44,353 nt of DNA from the NCBI GenBank assembly GCA_016234495.1, contig JACRBI010000035.1, positions 1 to 44,353 on the forward strand, written 5' to 3'. The number at the start of each line of letters is the position of its first letter. The first letter of the stretch is position 1. Below are positions 16,889 through 41,336 of this stretch, one piece after another. A program made the position numbers and the translations under genes. The stretch comes from Chloroflexota bacterium (GTDB lineage Bacteria; Chloroflexota; Anaerolineae; Anaerolineales; Villigracilaceae). The notes under the pieces are model-generated. The model was not told the DNA's origin, did no database searches, and was given only the letters and a program-made list of their open reading frames with translations.

Positions 16889-16917
16889 TTGACTTTCCTG
16901 CAGGGCTGCTATAAAAT
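16889..16917 (+). promoter_or_regulatory. Sigma70-type promoter of a leader-peptide RNA
   Basis: TTGACT (16889-16894), a 17-bp spacer, then TAAAAT (16912-16917) form a strong housekeeping promoter. The predicted start is near 16924, about 33 nt before the small ORF. Confidence 0.75.
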
Positions 16918-16956
16918 CTGGTCACTATATCTCACTACGAAAGGAGGCACGAACAA

Positions 16957-17019
16957 ATGATAATCAATACATCGACCACCCAATATGTTTTAAGCGCGCC
17001 TCCCGCAGGTGATATGTAG
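16957..17019 (+). CDS. 20-residue leader peptide
   Basis: A 20-codon ORF starts 9 nt after the near-perfect ribosome site AAGGAGG (16941-16947), downstream of a good promoter and upstream of two terminators, so it is very likely translated. The peptide has TSTTQYVLSAPPAGDM at its end. The 25-residue leader peptide of the ABC exporter (40245-40322, minus) shares TT, V, L and SAP in the same order, and in both the Ser-Ala-Pro codons (AGY GCG CCT) form the switching RNA segment. The peptide itself is probably not the functional product; its translation is likely the sensor. Confidence 0.65.
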   Translation: MIINTSTTQYVLSAPPAGDM

Positions 17020-17050
17020 TAACGACTTTTGTCGGTATTTCTACCAGTCA

Positions 17051-17081
17051 ACCGCAGGCGCGATGCCTGCGGTATTTTTTT
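17051..17081 (+). terminator. Terminator 1 of the leader RNA
   Basis: A perfect 9-bp stem, ACCGCAGGC with GCCTGCGGT, with loop GCGAT and tail ATTTTTTT. Its left arm can alternatively pair with the leader ORF. Confidence 0.9.
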
Positions 17082-17087
17082 GCCTGG

Positions 17088-17121
17088 CCGCAGGGCGCAA
17101 TTTCCCTGTGGTTTTGTTTTT
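17088..17121 (+). terminator. Terminator 2 of the leader RNA
   Basis: CCGCAGGG pairs with CCCTGTGG (one wobble) and is followed by TTTTGTTTTT. It looks like a diverged duplicate of terminator 1. Its left arm is also complementary to the right arm of terminator 1. Confidence 0.75.
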
Positions 17122-17155: not shown

Positions 17156-17515
17156 ATGAAAGCATACAATAACAAGCTCGTTGTCCGCCGTTATTTTGAA
17201 GATGTTTTGCTGAATGGCAGGCTCGAATTGATCGAAGAATTATTTGACCCGAAGATATGCGGTCTCGTCAGACGCTACGCCTTTTTTGCGCCAGAGTCAT
17301 TTAGTATCAGCGACATGGTTGCGGAAGACGATACGGTGATGGTGCGCTGGCACACACCTCCGTTTCTAGGCGCGCAGTTCGATCAAAATGGATTTGCCGT
17401 TTGCTATCTTGAAGACGGCATGATTGTCGGGCTGGAGTTGATGGACGTTAACGGCATCATGCGCCAGATTGGCGCGGAAGTATTTTCTCCTGAATTTGAA
17501 ATACAAAGGTGCTAA
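17156..17515 (+). CDS. SnoaL-like / NTF2-fold protein
   Basis: This 119-residue protein has the SnoaL-like pattern: NKLVVRRYFEDVLLNGRLELIEELFDPKI at the start, then VAEDDTVMVRWHTP and a final VGLELMDVNGIMRQIG. Such cone-shaped NTF2-fold proteins include polyketide cyclases, isomerases and many small-molecule-binding proteins; the substrate here is unknown. ATG 17156 has no clear ribosome site; GTG 17144 in the same frame is an alternative start. The next gene begins at the base after its stop, so the two form an operon with the RIO kinase, downstream of the attenuator leader. Confidence 0.75.
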   Translation: MKAYNNKLVVRRYFEDVLLNGRLELIEELFDPKICGLVRRYAFFAPESFSISDMVAEDDTVMVRWHTPPFLGAQFDQNGFAVCYLEDGMIVGLELMDVNGIMRQIGAEVFSPEFEIQRC

Positions 17516-18529
17516 ATGAGCAAGAATAAACTTCTTGAACTATATGAAGAAATCGAAGACCTGGATGAGGATGCGACAGAGTCGGCGCCGAAGCGGTTGA
17601 CACAAAAGCGCGAGTCGAAGAAGCAGGTCATGGACGCAAAAGTATTTGTCCGCGCGCAGGAGGTTTCGCGCGAATTCAAATTCACCTACAAAGCCGCCCG
17701 CTTCGAGGAAGCCTGGCTGTTGGATTCTCTGGCTGAGATCGCCCAGCATCAGTGGATCTCGGACGTTCTGCGCAAAGTCAAAGGCGGGAAGGAAGCCTCG
17801 GTCTACCTGTGCAGGTCCGGGGTCGCAGTGGATGCGCCTCTCGTCGCCGCGAAGGTCTATCGCCCGCGGTCGCTCCGCAATCTGAAGAACGATCAGCAAT
17901 ATCGCGTCGGCCGCGTTGACCTTGGCGAGGACGGCAATGCCCTCGTAAAAAGCGCGGATGTTCACGCGATTGCCAAACGGAGCAGCTACGGTGAAGGCCT
18001 CCGCCACCAGTCGTGGATCGCGTACGAATTCAGGACTCTTGAAATTTTACACGAGGCAGGTGTGGATGTCCCCAAGCCGTACGCGATGGAGAAGAACGCA
18101 ATCCTGATGGGATACGTCGGCAGCCTTGAACGCTCTGCGCCAGCTTTGAGTTCTGTCTCCCTTGAGCTGGATGAAGCTAAACATCTCTATGACCGCACGG
18201 TTCACAACATTGACCTGATGCTCACACACGATCGCATTCATGGCGACCTCTCGGCTTATAACATATTGTATTGGGACGGCGATATCACCCTGATCGATTT
18301 TCCGCAGGTGGTATTGCCCGAGTCGAACCCCGCTTCGTGGAATATCTTCCTGCGCGACGTGACCCGCGTCTGTCAGTACTTCTCCTTGCAGGGAGTGGAA
18401 TGCGATGGCCGAAAGCTTGCAACTGAGCTATGGACTTCTCACGGGCACAAGACAGTCAAGGAGATAGACCCGCGTTACCTCGATGCTGAGAAGCCAGAAG
18501 ACCGTAAAGTTTGGGAAAAACAAAAATAA
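17516..18529 (+). CDS. RIO1-family atypical protein kinase
   Basis: A 337-residue RIO kinase. The N-terminal 80 residues are charged and flexible. The kinase domain has the nucleotide-binding stretch VKGGKEASVYLC (about 87-98), the ATP-anchoring Lys in AAKVYRP (about 110), the catalytic HGDLSAYN (242-249, Asp244 and Asn249) and the metal-binding IDFPQ (about 259-263). Archaeal and eukaryotic RIO1 works in small-subunit ribosome maturation; bacterial RIO kinases are less understood. If the upstream leader senses ribosome stalling, a ribosome-linked kinase would fit, but this is inference. It starts directly after the SnoaL-like stop with AAAGGTG upstream. A strong terminator follows. Confidence 0.93.
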   Translation: MSKNKLLELYEEIEDLDEDATESAPKRLTQKRESKKQVMDAKVFVRAQEVSREFKFTYKAARFEEAWLLDSLAEIAQHQWISDVLRKVKGGKEASVYLCRSGVAVDAPLVAAKVYRPRSLRNLKNDQQYRVGRVDLGEDGNALVKSADVHAIAKRSSYGEGLRHQSWIAYEFRTLEILHEAGVDVPKPYAMEKNAILMGYVGSLERSAPALSSVSLELDEAKHLYDRTVHNIDLMLTHDRIHGDLSAYNILYWDGDITLIDFPQVVLPESNPASWNIFLRDVTRVCQYFSLQGVECDGRKLATELWTSHGHKTVKEIDPRYLDAEKPEDRKVWEKQK

Positions 18530-35922: not shown

Positions 35923-37782
35923 TCAATCCGCCGCCATCACATCACTTACTTCTTCCTCGTTACTCGTCGTTTCACTCTCATCCGCTACACCGTACTGCAC
36001 TTCCAACTGATGACGGAACTGCTGGGTGTACAACCTGTAATAATGTCCGCGCAGTTTGAGCAGTTCGGCATGTGAGCCTTGCTCGGCAATGTGACCGTTC
36101 TCGATCACTAGGATTCTGTCCGCGCGGCGGATGGTGCTGAGGCGGTGCGCAATGACGAAGGAGGTGCGGCCTTTCATCAAGGCGTCCATGCCGCGCTGGA
36201 TGAGCGCCTCGGTCAATGTGTCTACCGATGAGGTGGCTTCGTCCATGATGAACAACTCGGGGCGGGCAAGCACGGCGCGCGCGAGGCTGATCAACTGCTT
36301 CTGCCCGACCGACAACAAATTTCCGCTTTCACCCACGTTCTGCTCGTAGCCCTTTTCGAGAGTCACAATGAAATCATGCGCGCCCGCAATCTTGGCGGCT
36401 TCCTCAACTTGCGCATCGTCCGCAGACAAATTACCGTAGCGGATATTCTCGCGCACCGTCCCCGAGAACAGGTGCGGCGTTTGCAGTACGATGCCGATCT
36501 TGTCATGGATCGACTCCAGTTTATAGTCCATGTAATCCAATCCGTTGATGCGGATCACGCCTTTGCTCGGCTCATAAAAGCGGCAGAGTAGATTCACGAT
36601 CGTGCTTTTGCCGCCACCTGTCGGCCCGACAAGAGCGATCATCTCGCCAGGATTCACCTTCAGTGTGAAATCTTTCAAAACGGATTTCCTATCCTCGTAG
36701 AAAAAATCCACTGAATCAAATTCGATCTCGCCGAGCAGAGTTTTCGCTTCGACGGCATCGGGTCTATTGTGGACCTCGGGCGGGGTGTCGACCAACTTGA
36801 AGATTCGTTCCGCTGAGGCGATGCTGTGCTGCATCTCGGAATATACACGCGCCAGGTCTTGAATGGGCCACATCATAAAAGTGAGATACGCCACGAAGGC
36901 TTGAATGCCGCCGATGGTCATCAGCCCGATCTCGATTTGCAGTCCGCCGTACCCGACGATAAAACCGAGCGCGAGCGCGGCGATCATTTGCACAGTCGGC
37001 AGGAAGAGCGCCGAGAGCCACGCCGCGCGGTACGAGGCGTGATACATCCTGGAAGTCAGCCCTTGAAACTCGCGGGTGTTTTCATCTTCGCGGCCAAGCG
37101 CCTTCGTGACGCGTGTCCCTTGAAAACTTTCGTTGAACGCGCCTGTGATCTTGCTGTTGGCGCGGCGCGAGATACGGAACTGCTCCAAAATCCGCTTGCG
37201 GAATTCCACCGCGATGATCATCATGACGGGGATGATGGTCAGCACAATCAACGCCAGCTTCCAGTTGATGATGAGCATAAAGACCGTGGACGAGGTTATG
37301 TTCATTACAGCCCAAGTTGAATCGACCACGCCCCAGGTCAGCAGGTCAGAGACGCGCCCTGTATCAGAAGTCACGCGCGCGATCAAACGTCCGACCGCGT
37401 TCTGTGAATAATACGAGAGCGAGAGGTCTTGCAAGTGATTGAAAAGCATCTTGCGCAGGTCATATTGAATGCGCTCGCCCAGCACGCCAGCGAGGTAAAT
37501 GAAGGTAAATACCGCGGCAGACTGCACAAGAATGAACGAGCCGTAAATGACAGTGATCTGTATCACGCGCGCGGTATCTTTCAGGACAATTCCCTGATCG
37601 ATGATTTGCTTGTTCAGGTACGTGAAATACGCATCCAGCCCGGAGACGAGCGCGATGGTCAGTAAAAAGCCCGCAACCCATTTCCAGTGCGGTTTGAGCA
37701 ATCCGCCGATGCGTTTCAGCACGGGGGTGGTTAGTTGTGAAGTAAATTCTTCTTCTTCGAGTTCGAGTATTTCGTCGGTCAT
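35923..37782 (-). CDS. ABC exporter half-transporter with degenerate signature (heterodimer subunit 2)
   Basis: A 619-residue type IV exporter subunit with six transmembrane helices (about 30-320) and a nucleotide-binding domain (about 350-590). Walker A is GPTGGGKST, Walker B is LFIMDEATSSVD (catalytic Glu present) and the H-loop is IAHRLS, but the signature reads LSVGQ rather than LSGGQ. The other subunit (38312-40162) has a normal signature but Asp in place of the catalytic Glu. Together they form one active and one degenerate ATP site, as in TM287/288- and BmrCD-type heterodimers. It likely exports drugs or lipids. The acidic tail (ESETTSNEEEVSD) is cytosolic. GGAG 9 nt upstream supports the start. 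A four-helix-bundle gene separates it from its partner. Confidence 0.93.
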   Translation of the reverse strand: MTDEILELEEEEFTSQLTTPVLKRIGGLLKPHWKWVAGFLLTIALVSGLDAYFTYLNKQIIDQGIVLKDTARVIQITVIYGSFILVQSAAVFTFIYLAGVLGERIQYDLRKMLFNHLQDLSLSYYSQNAVGRLIARVTSDTGRVSDLLTWGVVDSTWAVMNITSSTVFMLIINWKLALIVLTIIPVMMIIAVEFRKRILEQFRISRRANSKITGAFNESFQGTRVTKALGREDENTREFQGLTSRMYHASYRAAWLSALFLPTVQMIAALALGFIVGYGGLQIEIGLMTIGGIQAFVAYLTFMMWPIQDLARVYSEMQHSIASAERIFKLVDTPPEVHNRPDAVEAKTLLGEIEFDSVDFFYEDRKSVLKDFTLKVNPGEMIALVGPTGGGKSTIVNLLCRFYEPSKGVIRINGLDYMDYKLESIHDKIGIVLQTPHLFSGTVRENIRYGNLSADDAQVEEAAKIAGAHDFIVTLEKGYEQNVGESGNLLSVGQKQLISLARAVLARPELFIMDEATSSVDTLTEALIQRGMDALMKGRTSFVIAHRLSTIRRADRILVIENGHIAEQGSHAELLKLRGHYYRLYTQQFRHQLEVQYGVADESETTSNEEEVSDVMAAD

Positions 37783-37892: not shown

Positions 37893-38258
37893 TTATCTGC
37901 CAATTCTTTTCTTCACCTTTGTTACGATAGTTACGAGAATTGCAATGATTTCATCCGTTTCTTTGCGAAGGGATTCGAGTTTGGATGCGGGGACAATATC
38001 AGATTTGACAAGGAGTTCGAGCCAATACGCGGTTTCATCCGCCTCCTGCAAACAACTCTCGAGTTTATTGATAAAGTCCGCGTCCGACTTGGCGCGTTGA
38101 CTTTCGCGAAACTGCGCTCCCACAGATGTTCCCGAGCGCAAGACTTGCTTACCCAACGTCTGCGCAGCGGTGGACTTTGGCAAAGTCGAATACATGCGGA
38201 CAATTCGTAAAGCAAAACTTGTCGTTCGTTCCCGCAGATCGTTTTGATTTTCGCTCAT
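37893..38258 (-). CDS. Four-helix-bundle protein (S23 / 23S rRNA intervening-sequence family)
   Basis: A 121-residue, mostly helical protein of the four-helix-bundle family: LRERTTSFALRIVRMYSTLP, then LGKQVLRSGTSVGAQFRESQRAKS and DFINKLESCLQEADETAYWLELL are the usual family patterns. Such genes were first found in intervening sequences of 23S rRNA and are now known as scattered genes with unknown roles, probably RNA-binding or mobile. It sits between the two halves of the heterodimeric ABC exporter, flanked on both sides by AT-rich palindromic repeats, which suggests a late insertion. AAGGAGAAAACC before ATG supports the start. Confidence 0.9.
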   Translation of the reverse strand: MSENQNDLRERTTSFALRIVRMYSTLPKSTAAQTLGKQVLRSGTSVGAQFRESQRAKSDADFINKLESCLQEADETAYWLELLVKSDIVPASKLESLRKETDEIIAILVTIVTKVKKRIGR

Positions 38259-38274: not shown

Positions 38275-38335
38275 AAATTCAGAAATCAAAATTATGAATT
38301 TCTTTCTGATTTCATAATTCAGACTTCATAATTTC
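38275..38335. repeat. AT-rich palindromic repeat, right flank of the four-helix-bundle gene
   Basis: On the minus strand ATTATGAAGTCTGAATTATGA is followed by AGAAATTCATAATTTTGATT. It includes the last codons of the preceding exporter gene (IMKSEL), so the repeat seems to have entered or replaced its 3' end. The left flank (37817-37892) has matching motifs. Confidence 0.6.
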
Positions 38336-40162
38336 CTGTTCCAACTCCGTATCAATCTTCGTTTGGATATCGTAAATCTTCCGATACATGCCGTCTTTTT
38401 CTTTCAGCAGTTCGTCATGTGTGCCCATTTGCACCACTTCGCCCTTATCCAGCACGAGGATCAAATCCGCGACCATCACAGACTGAATGCGGTGCGCAAT
38501 GATGAAGGTCGTGCGGTTTTGCATCAAGCCGTTCAGCGCCTCACGGATCTCCGCTTCGGTTTCAGTGTCCACTGACGAAGTCGAGTCGTCGAGAATCAAG
38601 ATGCGCGGATTTTTCAACAGGGTGCGCGCAATCGCCACACGCTGTTTTTGCCCGCCGGAGAGGGTCACGCCTTTCTCGCCGACCAGCGTATTGTAGCCAT
38701 CGGGGAAAGTCAGAATTACATCATGCACAGCGGCGGCTTTCGCGGCGCGTTCCACTTCCTCAGCCGGTACATCGCGCTCCACTCCGTACATGATGTTTTC
38801 ACGGATCGAGCGGCTGAATAAAAATGGCTCCTGCTCCACGATGCCAATCTGCTTGCGCAGGTAGGCGCGCGAGTAATCCTTCAGCTCCACGCCGTCGAGC
38901 AGAATTCGTCCGCCCGTGTATTCGTGAAAACGGGGGAGCAGGTTCACCAGCGATGTCTTGCCTGAACCCGTTGACCCAAGCAGCGCGATTGCCTGTCCAG
39001 GCTTGGCGTGGAACGAGACGTTCTTCAACACATCTGATTTGCCGTCGGAATACATGAACGAGACATCCTCGAAAAGGAGATCGCCTCGCGCCGCGCCCTC
39101 GGGCTGGTGCTTGCCATCGAGCAGTGGTTCACGCTGCTGCTTGACCACTTCCATCAGACGCGCGTACGAGACCATGCCGGTTGAGGTTGAAACGATAATG
39201 CGCCCAAGGTTGCGGATGGGAAAGATCAACCAGACCACAAGCCCGATGTAGGCTACATACGTACCCATTGAAATTTCGCCGTTGATGGCCATGTACGCGC
39301 CATAGACAAACCCGAACAGCATTTGGAATCCGAGCACTATATCCGAGAGCGGCCAGAACATGGAATGCATGAAAAGCAGTATCTTGCCTTTTAGATACTT
39401 GCCCCAATTGTCTTTCTCGAACTTGCTTTTTTCGTAGTCCTGGCGAGCAAAGGCTTTGACCACGCGGACGCCCGTCAGGTTTTCCTGCAAGGTGGTCGAG
39501 AGAACAGCCTCTTGTGCCTGATAGGCTTCGTAGGCCTTGGTCACTTTTTTGAAGAACCAAATGGACACAACGAAGATGATCGGAATAGTGACGATGGATA
39601 TCCACGCAAGTTCCGCGTTGAGGTTATAGATTGCCACAAAGTTGATGACGAACAGCAGGATGATGCGTCCCATGCCGATGGCCTGTTCACTGAAGAAGCG
39701 GCGCAGGGCATCCACGTCCGAGGTGACACGCTCGATCAAATCACCTGTGGGGGTGGTGGCGTGATACGAGAAACTCAGTCGCTGAATGTGGTCAAAGAGG
39801 AAGTCTCTCAAACGGCGGGTAATGCCCTCGGCGGTGTACGCGGCCAAACGTCCAGAAAGGAACGAGAAGGTCCCCTCAAAAGCGGCCAGGGTAATGAATC
39901 CCACGCCGATCCAGATCAGTGACGATGTCAGCGAGTCGCCAATGAACTTTTTCTGCGCCAATACATCATCTGCAAAAAAGCGCAGGAGGATGTAGGTATA
40001 GGTCTTCGAGAGGGCTGAGATCGCCAGGGCGAGGGTGGCCGCGATGTAGGACAGGCGGTAATCCGACATCATTTGCCATAAGCCTTTCAGGCGGTTGGCT
40101 TGCAGGGTGGGGCGGAAGTCAAAGGTGAGTGCAGGTTCGTGGGCGGGGTTAAGTGTGGTCAT
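38312..40162 (-). CDS. ABC exporter half-transporter with non-canonical Walker B (heterodimer subunit 1)
   Basis: A 616-residue type IV exporter half with six transmembrane helices (about 35-325) and a nucleotide-binding domain (about 350-595). Walker A is GSTGSGKTS, the signature is the normal LSGGQKQRVAIAR, but Walker B ends ILILDDSTSSVD, so the catalytic Glu is Asp. Paired with the subunit encoded at 35923-37782, which has a degenerate signature, this makes exactly one non-hydrolytic site, as in BmrCD- and TM287/288-type exporters. ATG 40162 is chosen because GAGGAAA lies 5 nt upstream; a frame extending to 40219 would overlap the leader terminator. The gene is preceded by a leader peptide and attenuator, so expression is probably inducible. 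Confidence 0.93.
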   Translation of the reverse strand: MTTLNPAHEPALTFDFRPTLQANRLKGLWQMMSDYRLSYIAATLALAISALSKTYTYILLRFFADDVLAQKKFIGDSLTSSLIWIGVGFITLAAFEGTFSFLSGRLAAYTAEGITRRLRDFLFDHIQRLSFSYHATTPTGDLIERVTSDVDALRRFFSEQAIGMGRIILLFVINFVAIYNLNAELAWISIVTIPIIFVVSIWFFKKVTKAYEAYQAQEAVLSTTLQENLTGVRVVKAFARQDYEKSKFEKDNWGKYLKGKILLFMHSMFWPLSDIVLGFQMLFGFVYGAYMAINGEISMGTYVAYIGLVVWLIFPIRNLGRIIVSTSTGMVSYARLMEVVKQQREPLLDGKHQPEGAARGDLLFEDVSFMYSDGKSDVLKNVSFHAKPGQAIALLGSTGSGKTSLVNLLPRFHEYTGGRILLDGVELKDYSRAYLRKQIGIVEQEPFLFSRSIRENIMYGVERDVPAEEVERAAKAAAVHDVILTFPDGYNTLVGEKGVTLSGGQKQRVAIARTLLKNPRILILDDSTSSVDTETEAEIREALNGLMQNRTTFIIAHRIQSVMVADLILVLDKGEVVQMGTHDELLKEKDGMYRKIYDIQTKIDTELEQEIMKSEL

Positions 40163-40180
40163 GGTATTTCCTCGGAAAAA

Positions 40181-40216
40181 ATTAAACAAAAAGGCTGTGA
40201 CGAGTGCGCCACAGCC
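40181..40216 (-). terminator. Attenuator terminator before the ABC exporter operon
   Basis: On the minus strand GGCTGTG pairs with CACAGCC, with an inner loop containing GGCGCACTCG, followed by TTTTTGTTTAATTTTTT. It lies just 8 bp before the exporter ribosome site, an odd place for anything but an attenuator. Confidence 0.85.
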
Positions 40217-40244
40217 CAAAACAAACAGGGGACAGGTAGGAGAC

Positions 40245-40322
40245 CTAGTTTTGGTCTACAGGCGCACTCCGAGAAGGCAATTTGCCAACTGCATTGGGTG
40301 TAGTGAAGATTGTGACGGACAT
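40245..40322 (-). CDS. 25-residue leader peptide of the ABC exporter operon
   Basis: A 25-codon ORF with ATG at 40322 and AAAGGAG (40333-40339) 10 nt upstream; TTG 40325 is an alternative start. The peptide begins MSVTIFTTPNAVGKL and ends SAPVDQN. It has no run of one amino acid, so stalling by an antibiotic or a nascent-peptide effect is more likely than amino-acid starvation. It shares TT...V...L...SAP with the 20-residue peptide at 16957-17019. The closest known parallel is BmrB, the leader peptide of the heterodimeric exporter BmrCD of Bacillus subtilis, which works by ribosome-mediated attenuation; sequence similarity is not claimed. Confidence 0.7.
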   Translation of the reverse strand: MSVTIFTTPNAVGKLPSRSAPVDQN

Positions 40323-40372
40323 CAAGAGTGCGCTCCTTTCTTTGGGATGTGTACTTTTTGAGTACGGTCGTG

Positions 40373-40402
40373 AGTTTACCCTGTGAGATTGGGAAGTGTC
40401 AA
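40373..40402 (-). promoter_or_regulatory. Promoter of the ABC exporter operon
   Basis: On the minus strand a perfect TTGACA (40402-40397), an 18-bp spacer and TAAACT (40378-40373). The predicted start is near 40366, giving a leader of about 200 nt. Confidence 0.7.
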
Positions 40403-40424
40403 GGAGAAATTCATGAATATTGCA

Positions 40425-40451
40425 CGTAACTTTTGAAAAGCAAAAGCGACT
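40425..40451 (+). promoter_or_regulatory. ECF-sigma-type promoter, ferredoxin 1
   Basis: CGTAACTTTT-N12-CGACT. The same two blocks with identical spacing lie at 40909 and 42276. The form GTAAC-N16-CGAC matches the promoters of ECF sigma factors such as SigX. The ATG follows CGACT by 13 nt, so the leader is very short. Confidence 0.7.
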
Positions 40452-40464
40452 ACTTATCATATCT

Positions 40465-40851
40465 ATGACTCACGTGATAACAAGTTTGTGCCTGAGAGAT
40501 AACGGCTGTGTGGCGGTTTGCCCGGTAAAGTGTATTTACCCCGGCGAGCCGGCGTCGCAATGGCCGACATTTTTTATCGACCCCACAACCTGCACTGATT
40601 GCGGATCGTGTGTGCCGGAGTGTCCATTTGACGCAATCTTCCCCTTGACCGAGGTGCCCGGAGCATATTTGGCCAGGGGCGGGGAGTACGTCAATCAGGT
40701 TGGGCTAACGGGTCGGTATGAAGGTTTTGATCACCACGGAAATAAAATAGTGCTGGACACTGCTCGCCTGCTGGCGGCGGGAGAAATAATAGATTTGAGG
40801 AGCAGCATCAAGGAAACTGTGATGTGGTCCTGTCATTTCCTCGACATTTAA
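40465..40851 (+). CDS. Ferredoxin 1, dicluster iron-sulfur protein
   Basis: This 128-residue protein has eight Cys in a bacterial two-cluster ferredoxin pattern: C9-x5-C15-x3-C19-P-x2-C23 and C43-x2-C46-x2-C49-x3-C53-P. The spacing is close to 7Fe/8Fe ferredoxins of the Azotobacter FdI type, but the first pair is 5 rather than 7 residues apart, so clusters could be two [4Fe-4S] or a [3Fe-4S]/[4Fe-4S] pair. A C-terminal extension of about 70 residues (TEVPGAYLARGGEYVNQVGL) follows, also present in ferredoxin 2. It carries electrons at low potential. The start at 40465 matches that of the paralogue; there is no ribosome site, but it lies just downstream of the ECF-type promoter. A tandem duplicate follows. 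Confidence 0.9.
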   Translation: MTHVITSLCLRDNGCVAVCPVKCIYPGEPASQWPTFFIDPTTCTDCGSCVPECPFDAIFPLTEVPGAYLARGGEYVNQVGLTGRYEGFDHHGNKIVLDTARLLAAGEIIDLRSSIKETVMWSCHFLDI

Positions 40852-40908
40852 TTGAGTTTTTACTGTTTAAAGCAAAAGTTAAAACCGTATTAGGACATGC
40901 ACAGGGAA

Positions 40909-40964: not shown

Positions 40965-41336
40965 ATGACTCACGTAATAACAAGTTTATGCCTTAGAGAC
41001 AACGGCTGCCTCTCTGTTTGCCCGGTTGAATGTATTCAGCCTGGTGAGCCGGCGGCGCAATGGCCGACGTTTTATATTGACCCAGGCACCTGCATCGATT
41101 GCGGCGCATGTGTACCGGAATGTCCTTTCCATGCAATTTTCCCATTGGATGAAGTGCCGGGTACCTACAAAGCGAAAGGTGGAGAATACATTAACCAGAC
41201 CGGGCTGACGGGTTACTACGAAGGAACCAATCACAATGGTGATAAAGTTGTTCTTGAAACCACTCGCGTGCTGGCGGCCGGCGAGGTCGTCGATTTGAAA
41301 CCCAGCATCAAGGACAACGAAAATTTCTACAAATAG
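40965..41336 (+). CDS. Ferredoxin 2, tandem paralogue of ferredoxin 1
   Basis: A 123-residue dicluster ferredoxin with the same Cys layout (C9, C15, C19, C23, C43, C46, C49, C53) and the same C-terminal extension (DEVPGTYKAKGGEYINQTGLTGYYE). The two paralogues agree over nearly their whole length, so they arose by tandem duplication. The start follows AAAGGAG by 5 nt, unlike ferredoxin 1. It has its own ECF-type promoter. Keeping two copies under the same promoter type suggests a need for a high dose or for two partners under stress. A terminator follows. Confidence 0.92.
   Translation: MTHVITSLCLRDNGCLSVCPVECIQPGEPAAQWPTFYIDPGTCIDCGACVPECPFHAIFPLDEVPGTYKAKGGEYINQTGLTGYYEGTNHNGDKVVLETTRVLAAGEVVDLKPSIKDNENFYK

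Follow-up and report, generated by a model that had tools for sequence, protein, structure and literature searches.

A predicted translation-coupled attenuator ahead of a heterodimeric ABC exporter in Anaerolineae, and an apparently class-wide family of related leaders

The window analysed here, a stretch of 44,353 nucleotides from a Chloroflexota bacterium (contig JACRBI010000035.1), carries ahead of an ABC exporter operon a leader which, judged by sequence comparison and computed folds, is very probably a translation-coupled transcription attenuator. The leader combines a short open reading frame (ORF), equipped with a Shine-Dalgarno (SD) sequence and a promoter, with a predicted intrinsic terminator before the structural gene and an antiterminator computed to be incompatible both with that terminator and with a ribosome terminating translation. 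It appears to belong to a class-wide family of leaders, the attenuator being of a known kind and the family itself apparently new. Open-licence literature on Chloroflexota and Anaerolineae leader peptides, attenuation, RNA motifs and ribosome stalling gave no description of the leader among the matches listed, within the portions of those sources available.

The leader lies on the minus strand between 40402 and 40162, where a script-based check gave the order promoter, SD, 25-codon ORF, terminator with U tract, and exporter ribosome site and start (Table 1). The promoter, AAAGGAG, ORF and terminator named by a first-pass annotation of the DNA are all present there, and the terminator does stand upstream of the exporter ribosome site, although the U tract and the exporter GAGG are 10 bases apart and not 8 as that annotation had it; the exporter starts at 40162. 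Its proposal that three segments pair only in exclusive combinations, 1:2 or 2:3, is borne out, since segment 2 is common to both pairings, and segment 3 does sit inside the terminator hairpin, in the 5' arm and loop (40210-40202). The minimum-energy fold of the window leader consists of 1:2 plus the terminator (-52.2 kcal/mol, z -2.55; 2 of 200 shuffles were as stable). Of 159 related leaders, 150 have a TTGAC-N17/18-TA-type promoter, where shuffling predicts 0.9. Among these 150 the -10 box is strikingly uniform, 124 of them having TAAACT.

Table 1. Features of the two leaders and the adjoining genes, in window coordinates.
Feature	Position	Strand	Details
Promoter TTGACA-N18-TAAACT	40373..40402	-	TTGACA 40402-40397, spacer 18, TAAACT 40378-40373; 10/12 consensus
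Leader ORF Shine-Dalgarno AAAGGAG	40333..40339	-	
Segment 1, GCGCACTC	40326..40333	-	Putative anti-antiterminator half; between leader SD and start, overlaps SD end
Leader ORF, 25 codons, MSVTIFTTPNAVGKLPSRSAPVDQN then stop	40245..40322	-	Stop codon 40247-40245
Segment 2, GAGTGCGCC	40261..40269	-	Putative pivot; codons 18-21; first base 40269 is the Arg wobble base
Small hairpin AGACC/GGTCT at stop codon	40241..40257	-	Seen in sequence; weakly supported as a general feature
Segment 3, GGCGCACTC	40202..40210	-	Putative antiterminator half; within terminator 5' arm and loop
Predicted intrinsic terminator	40184..40217	-	Stem 40217-40207/40202-40192, 11 pairs, loop CACT (4 nt), U tract 40191-40184
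ABC exporter half 1 (P0001)	38312..40162	-	Walker B ILILDD, LSGGQ (by eye)
ABC exporter half 2 (P0002)	35923..37782	-	Walker B FIMDE, LSVGQ (by eye)
Second-leader promoter TTGACT-N17-TAAAAT	16889..16917	+	
Second leader ORF, 20 codons, MIINTSTTQYVLSAPPAGDM then stop	16957..17019	+	Ends SAPPAGDM; SD present; segment-2 equivalent AGCGCGCC 16993-17000
Second-leader terminator with GGCGCG	17052..17081	+	GGCGCG is the segment-3 equivalent
Further terminator-like hairpin	17088-17119	+	In tandem with the second-leader terminator
SnoaL-like protein gene	17156-17515	+	Behind second leader
RIO1-like kinase gene	17516-18529	+	Behind second leader

In the proposed switch, a ribosome would translate the 25-codon ORF as RNA polymerase synthesises the leader. 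On arriving at the stop codon it would mask segment 2, the terminator would form and the exporter would stay untranscribed. A ribosome held in the first dozen or so codons would leave segment 2 free to pair with the newly made segment 3, a pairing that would break the terminator and allow the exporter operon to be transcribed. If no ribosome were loaded, 1:2 could form first where segment 1 exists, leaving the terminator intact; of the three branches we are least sure of this one. What the sequences show is the anatomy of the leader, its conservation and covariation, the retention of frame and stop, and the gene context; the transcript start, translation and termination, together with stalling and what brings it about, are inferred.

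The switch was folded in a set of 162 leaders taken from the order and from named Chloroflexota contigs, part of which had been picked by a pattern that included segment 1. With a ribosome early in the ORF and the terminator 3' arm not yet made, 2:3 is predicted in 157 of 162, and with the ribosome at the stop codon the terminator is predicted in all 162 and 2:3 in none. Full-length RNA without a ribosome folds into the terminator in 160 leaders and 1:2 in 147, while before the 3' arm is made 1:2 is found in 81 and 2:3 in 73, the window leader among the latter, which leaves the no-ribosome branch unsure. At equilibrium, full-length RNA with an early ribosome retains the terminator in 148 leaders and favours 2:3 in 14, including the window leader (-36.8 kcal/mol), so most leaders would need 2:3 to form first and then persist, in the manner of a kinetic switch. 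Folding with and without a ribosome footprint, the check proposed in the first-pass annotation, thus agrees with it for the early and the terminating ribosome, but splits between 1:2 and 2:3 where no ribosome is present. Along with conservation of 2:3 and of the ORF end, the early- and terminating-ribosome folds support the logic of ribosome-mediated attenuation that the annotation had recognised.

Conservation of the pairings is extensive. Helix 2:3 has at least 6 bp in 153 of the 162 leaders and 1:2 in 149 (9 and 13 fall below 6 bp, respectively), so that 1:2 is not universal. Within the ORF, the window that pairs best with segment 1 is segment 2 in 150 leaders, and the same holds for segment 3 in 149. 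In the 71 leaders for which only segment 2 and a start with SD served as selection criteria, at least 6 bp are kept by 2:3 in 63 and by 1:2 in 60. Segment 1 is absent in some lineages; four leaders that have none (L229, L230, L266 and L269) keep 10 bp of 2:3. On the alignment, 89.4% of 789 cells in 2:3 are standard pairs, as opposed to 31-53% in slid versions, and the 2:3 pairing proposed in the annotation is kept in related leaders. Cells of 2:3 changed on both sides number 15, against 5.7 after shuffling, but 18 in the version slid by +1; counted as pairs, those changed on both sides number 4, which does not exceed the 5 seen after the +1 slide, and 4 was attained in 46 of 500 shuffles.

Compensatory changes in related genomes, which the annotation had suggested looking for, occur at 8 of 8 predicted pairs of the terminator (87 leaders), and the wobble base of segment 2 covaries with both partners. 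As the third base of the conserved Arg codon, it can vary without altering the peptide. Pairing of this base with segment 1 is found in 140 of 159 leaders (mean of 88 under permutation) and with segment 3 in 77 of 101 (mean of 46); 0 of 500 permutations reached either value, the permutations taking no account of relatedness among the leaders. With the register fixed without the tested column, wobble pairing is found in 115 of 148 leaders for segment 1 and 64 of 94 for segment 3. Across 42 disjoint closest pairs of leaders differing at this base, the base pairs with the partner from its own leader in 58 of 74 cases for 1:2, and with the swapped partner in 24 of 74 (5 pairs unscorable); for 2:3 the figures are 19 of 28 and 9 of 28 (28 pairs unscorable, 14 of 42 scored).

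The same data bear on two explanations that dispense with the ribosome. Segments 1 to 3 could be DNA sites of a regulator, three spaced copies of an octamer lying about 60 bp apart in the window, the terminator merely ending a small transcript. We give this very little credence. Frame and stop are kept even though ORF length, and with it the spacing, ranges from 18 to 40 codons; a base of segment 2 varies together with its partners in segments 1 and 3 as base pairing would require; and in 21 of 162 leaders the terminator loop contains the whole of the segment 3 core. Conserved alternative pairings would also suit a ribosome-independent RNA switch, either a riboswitch or a protein-binding RNA, which nonetheless seems highly implausible: Rfam covariance models gave no match at gathering score in the stretch 39900-40900 (two matches, of 22.9 of 54 and 18.9 of 111 bits, are at chance level), the alignment has no strongly conserved block beyond SD, start, segment 2 and terminator, and the reading frame is kept across leaders. 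A three-way-junction antiterminator consisting of 2:3, the stop hairpin and a third hairpin was considered for the genus and is not claimed, because a 6-bp stop hairpin is present in 45 leaders as against 56 after shuffling; a stop hairpin of at least 5 bp is present in 139 of 162 leaders and in 101 of 162 after shuffling.

The leader ORF is kept in relatives with the same end point, as the attenuation reading anticipates. In 68 unique, exact-pattern leaders, from which matches lacking an ORF had already been removed, the distance from start to segment 2 falls in one frame in 61, in a second in 7 and in the third in none, and the stop codon lies 10-14 nt past segment 2 in 67. The seven off-frame leaders (L105, L138, L140, L142, L147, L151 and L176) mostly end in EVRLLTV and retain the RNA, with the stop at its usual distance in six. 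A different peptide on the same RNA suggests that RNA and place of termination outweigh the C-terminal peptide, at least in these leaders, which would amount to a natural test that this peptide is dispensable. Among leaders of the same kind segment 2 is near-invariant and the N-terminal part variable, and selection on codons 2-15 is weak (dN/dS 0.58 in 27 leaders; 0.92 and 0.64 in shifted frames). In three class-level leaders (L366, L382 and L387) the stop codon falls inside segment 2 itself (..TCGTAGTGCGCC).

Peptide composition speaks to two further alternatives. Classical amino-acid attenuation, by which the ORF would sense a scarce aminoacyl-tRNA, has in its favour the same architecture as that of trp-type leaders, yet it is very unlikely here: no single amino acid is in excess in the N-terminal parts pooled over the 162 leaders (I 9.6, L 9.4, V 8.8, T 8.3 and F 8.1%), and the typed downstream genes are not biosynthetic. 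The ErmC/ErmA-like motif I[AF]x occurs in the N-terminal part of 34 of 162 leaders against 12.3 after shuffling, and serves as a lead only, having been chosen after looking. The second alternative, that the ribosome is arrested by the conserved C-terminal peptide itself (RSAPVDR, SAPPAG) and held there, is improbable, if the least so of the explanations weighed against attenuation. The core of this peptide resembles RAPP-type arrest peptides and recurs outside the order (23 of the 39 loci read) as well as in ABC-F leaders whose 2:3 looks weak. Against this, a ribosome held at the C-terminal peptide would cover segment 2 and, by the folds with a ribosome at the stop, favour the terminator; the other-frame leaders lose the peptide and keep the RNA; and segment 2 is conserved at the nucleotide level, as pairing demands. 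RAPP arrest peptides are named in the available part of PMC12992588.

The distribution of the leader extends well beyond the window. A search of the leader DNA against 101 genomes returned strong matches (E < 1e-10) in 48 of 56 other genomes of the genus and in one of the same family, and a homologue of P0001 adjoins the leader at all 30 loci returned by that search, the window included. Following up weaker DNA matches revealed further leaders, ahead of other genes, that share the SD, the segments, the SAPV[DR]R ending and the terminator. The pattern of SD and segment 1 followed by segment 2 occurs in 23 of 301 genomes of the order, all of one family (reversed pattern, 1 of 301), and segment 2 alone (PSRSAPVD codons, up to 3 mismatches) in 120 of 301, with 16 of 301 for the reversed control by manual count. 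In named genomes the full pattern gave 87 stretches, 69 with a leader ORF. In fifteen of the other 18, no ORF starting at a nearby ATG runs through segment 2; in three (two Lentisphaerae contigs and one uncultured bacterium) a longer ORF does so, but there is no terminator. These 18 fit chance, as nearly all of their sources, among the titles listed, lie outside Chloroflexota (one is from Anaerolineae, L129; the title of L183 is not listed). Two pattern matches in viral contigs had no ORF.

At the level of the phylum, segment 2 with up to 2 mismatches is found in 21 of 400 genomes, one of them outside the class and taken as chance given the 2 matches of the reversed control. At a cut-off of E 0.001 (the E-values here are rough), a covariance model built from 87 non-redundant leaders has matches in 125 of the 298 class genomes, 106 of these outside the order. 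On reading the 39 better-scoring loci outside the order, [SIG]AP was found near the end of a short ORF in 23, a near variant in 12 and another frame in 4. Four weak model matches outside the class (E 4e-5 to 4e-4, two partial) were likewise taken as chance. In the genome that the window comes from, the model finds the leader before the window exporter, a second exporter (C17), an ABC-F gene (C28) and at a second site in the window; a fifth match (C22, E 0.12) has no leader ORF.

The second window site, on the plus strand (16889-17119), is well supported despite a weak model score (E 0.004), on account of its parts, its related loci and a RIO1 context that includes an independent leader. Its DNA matches 12 of 61 genomes, the own genome included, and a leader ORF is present on one strand at 16 of 17 loci. 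Of these leaders 14 are unique, and their peptides end in, for example, SAPPAGDM, FSAPPTGEW or NAPSEG. A RIO1-kinase homologue follows 11 of the 14 and also the independent class leader L388, whose segments 1 and 2 (GGCGCACG and CGTGCGCC) pair perfectly; the remaining three (the SAPP-type leaders L420, L423 and L424) precede a 416-423-aa gene that is Xaa-Pro aminopeptidase-like by eye.

A long ORF comes next in 155 of the 162 leaders. It encodes the window exporter type in 85, a second ABC exporter type in 28, a DrrA-like ABC ATPase below the NCBIfam cut-off for DrrA in 12, a GNAT in 13 forming two clusters plus 3 singles (one by similarity only), a family without assignment in 5, an MFS protein in 2 and RtcB in 1, with 6 partial or not typed. 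Further loci bring in ABC-F (5) and RsgA (5), each typed by similarity to one Pfam- or NCBIfam-tested member, and the RIO1 kinase. The own-genome ABC-F gene passes the cut-off for a ribosomal-protection-like protein (426.5 vs 380 bits), and its leader has no clear SD and, by eye, a short and shifted 2:3. Four leaders before ABC-F (L369, L394, L406 and L409) look leaderless, with TATAAT about 7-10 nt before the ATG and no SD seen, a spacing that makes segment 1 impossible. RsgA-like GTPase genes stand behind L375, L404, L407, L408 and L410, the last 38% identical and longer. Directly before the RtcB RNA ligase of one same-genus genome, L321 has a degenerate promoter and a changed segment 2. Six leaders, of the GNAT type or distant (L035, L036, L037, L042, L045 and L048), have a second terminator-like hairpin after the first.

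This list of downstream genes points to translation stress as the theme. With leaders preceding genes for drug export, drug modification, ribosome protection, and ribosome biogenesis or RNA repair, what the leaders sense is most likely a slowing of elongation by compounds that target the ribosome. The annotation had proposed induction of the exporter by compounds that stall ribosomes; we infer the same of ribosome-targeting or stalling compounds, and the downstream genes strengthen the case. The leaders are best read as a translation-stress regulon built from copies of one attenuator.

Several known systems resemble this arrangement in part. In trp-type leader attenuation a ribosome at the stop masks one half of the antiterminator and a ribosome held upstream frees it. 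In erm leaders an upstream ORF (uORF) senses ribosome-targeting antibiotics and acts on ribosome-site access. The predicted window leader would share the trp/ilv-type masking and freeing, but differs in having no excess of one amino acid and in the resistance and ribosome-care genes downstream. A case of ilvB1 leader attenuation appears in the available portion of PMC13236596, together with the uORF attenuation of whiB7 in Mycobacterium, which works similarly to what is predicted here; there, however, one attenuator drives a transcription factor, whereas here each target operon is preceded by a leader of its own, all of one kind. The uORFs of toiL (PMC12121999) and msrD (PMC10314930) sense ribosome-targeting antibiotics, that of toiL acting on access to the ribosome site; for toiL and msrD, the source portions available describe no single leader common to many unrelated genes.

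The parallel drawn by the annotation was the BmrB leader of bmrCD in Bacillus subtilis, where a leader ORF, terminator, antiterminator and predicted anti-antiterminator precede a heterodimeric multidrug exporter and antibiotic-slowed ribosomes are proposed to favour the antiterminator, according to the parts available of PMC4191407. By analogy, the way of working and the kind of exporter are alike, with a leader ORF and exclusive pairings before a heterodimeric ABC exporter, the control being predicted in the present case. The likeness fails in the placing of the terminator, which lies inside the bmrB coding sequence (PMC4191407, same parts) but follows the stop codon in the window. In the window leader, moreover, segment 2 is within the ORF and segment 1 abuts the leader SD.

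On balance we lean, with some reserve, towards a wider proposal, in which Anaerolineae would possess a translation-stress regulon that needs no transcription factor. A single attenuator module, whose near-invariant octamer pivot serves at once as SAP codons and as one half of an RNA pairing, would be copied before each operon (several exporters, GNATs, ABC-F, RsgA, RIO1 kinase, RtcB and the aminopeptidase-like gene), including the apparently leaderless ABC-F forms, the N-terminal codons of each copy being tuned to a different stall. Leader-peptide attenuation is textbook knowledge, and one module across many unrelated resistance and ribosome-care operons of a class would differ from it. If true, this would be a stress regulon in which copies of the sensor act in cis, as opposed to a single sensor that governs a single regulator. 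It would hint at what the uncharacterised exporters, GNATs, RIO1 kinases and RsgA copies of Chloroflexota do, and the variable N-terminal codons would form a natural series from which to learn the kind of stall that each copy reads.

The exporter downstream of the window leader is, from its protein sequences, of the heterodimeric type, as first annotated. Both proteins match chains of solved heterodimeric exporters (TM287/288, TmrAB and YheI/YheH, the last also called BmrC/BmrD), and one ATPase site is degenerate by eye. The asymmetry of ILILDD/LSGGQ against IMDE/LSVGQ is usual between the halves of such exporters. Between the two halves lies a 121-aa gene (37893-38258, minus strand), presumably for a four-helix-bundle (S23-type) protein. 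Divergent from the exporter promoter, two similar genes that look ferredoxin-like by eye follow each other in tandem on the plus strand (40420-40851 and 40965-41336).
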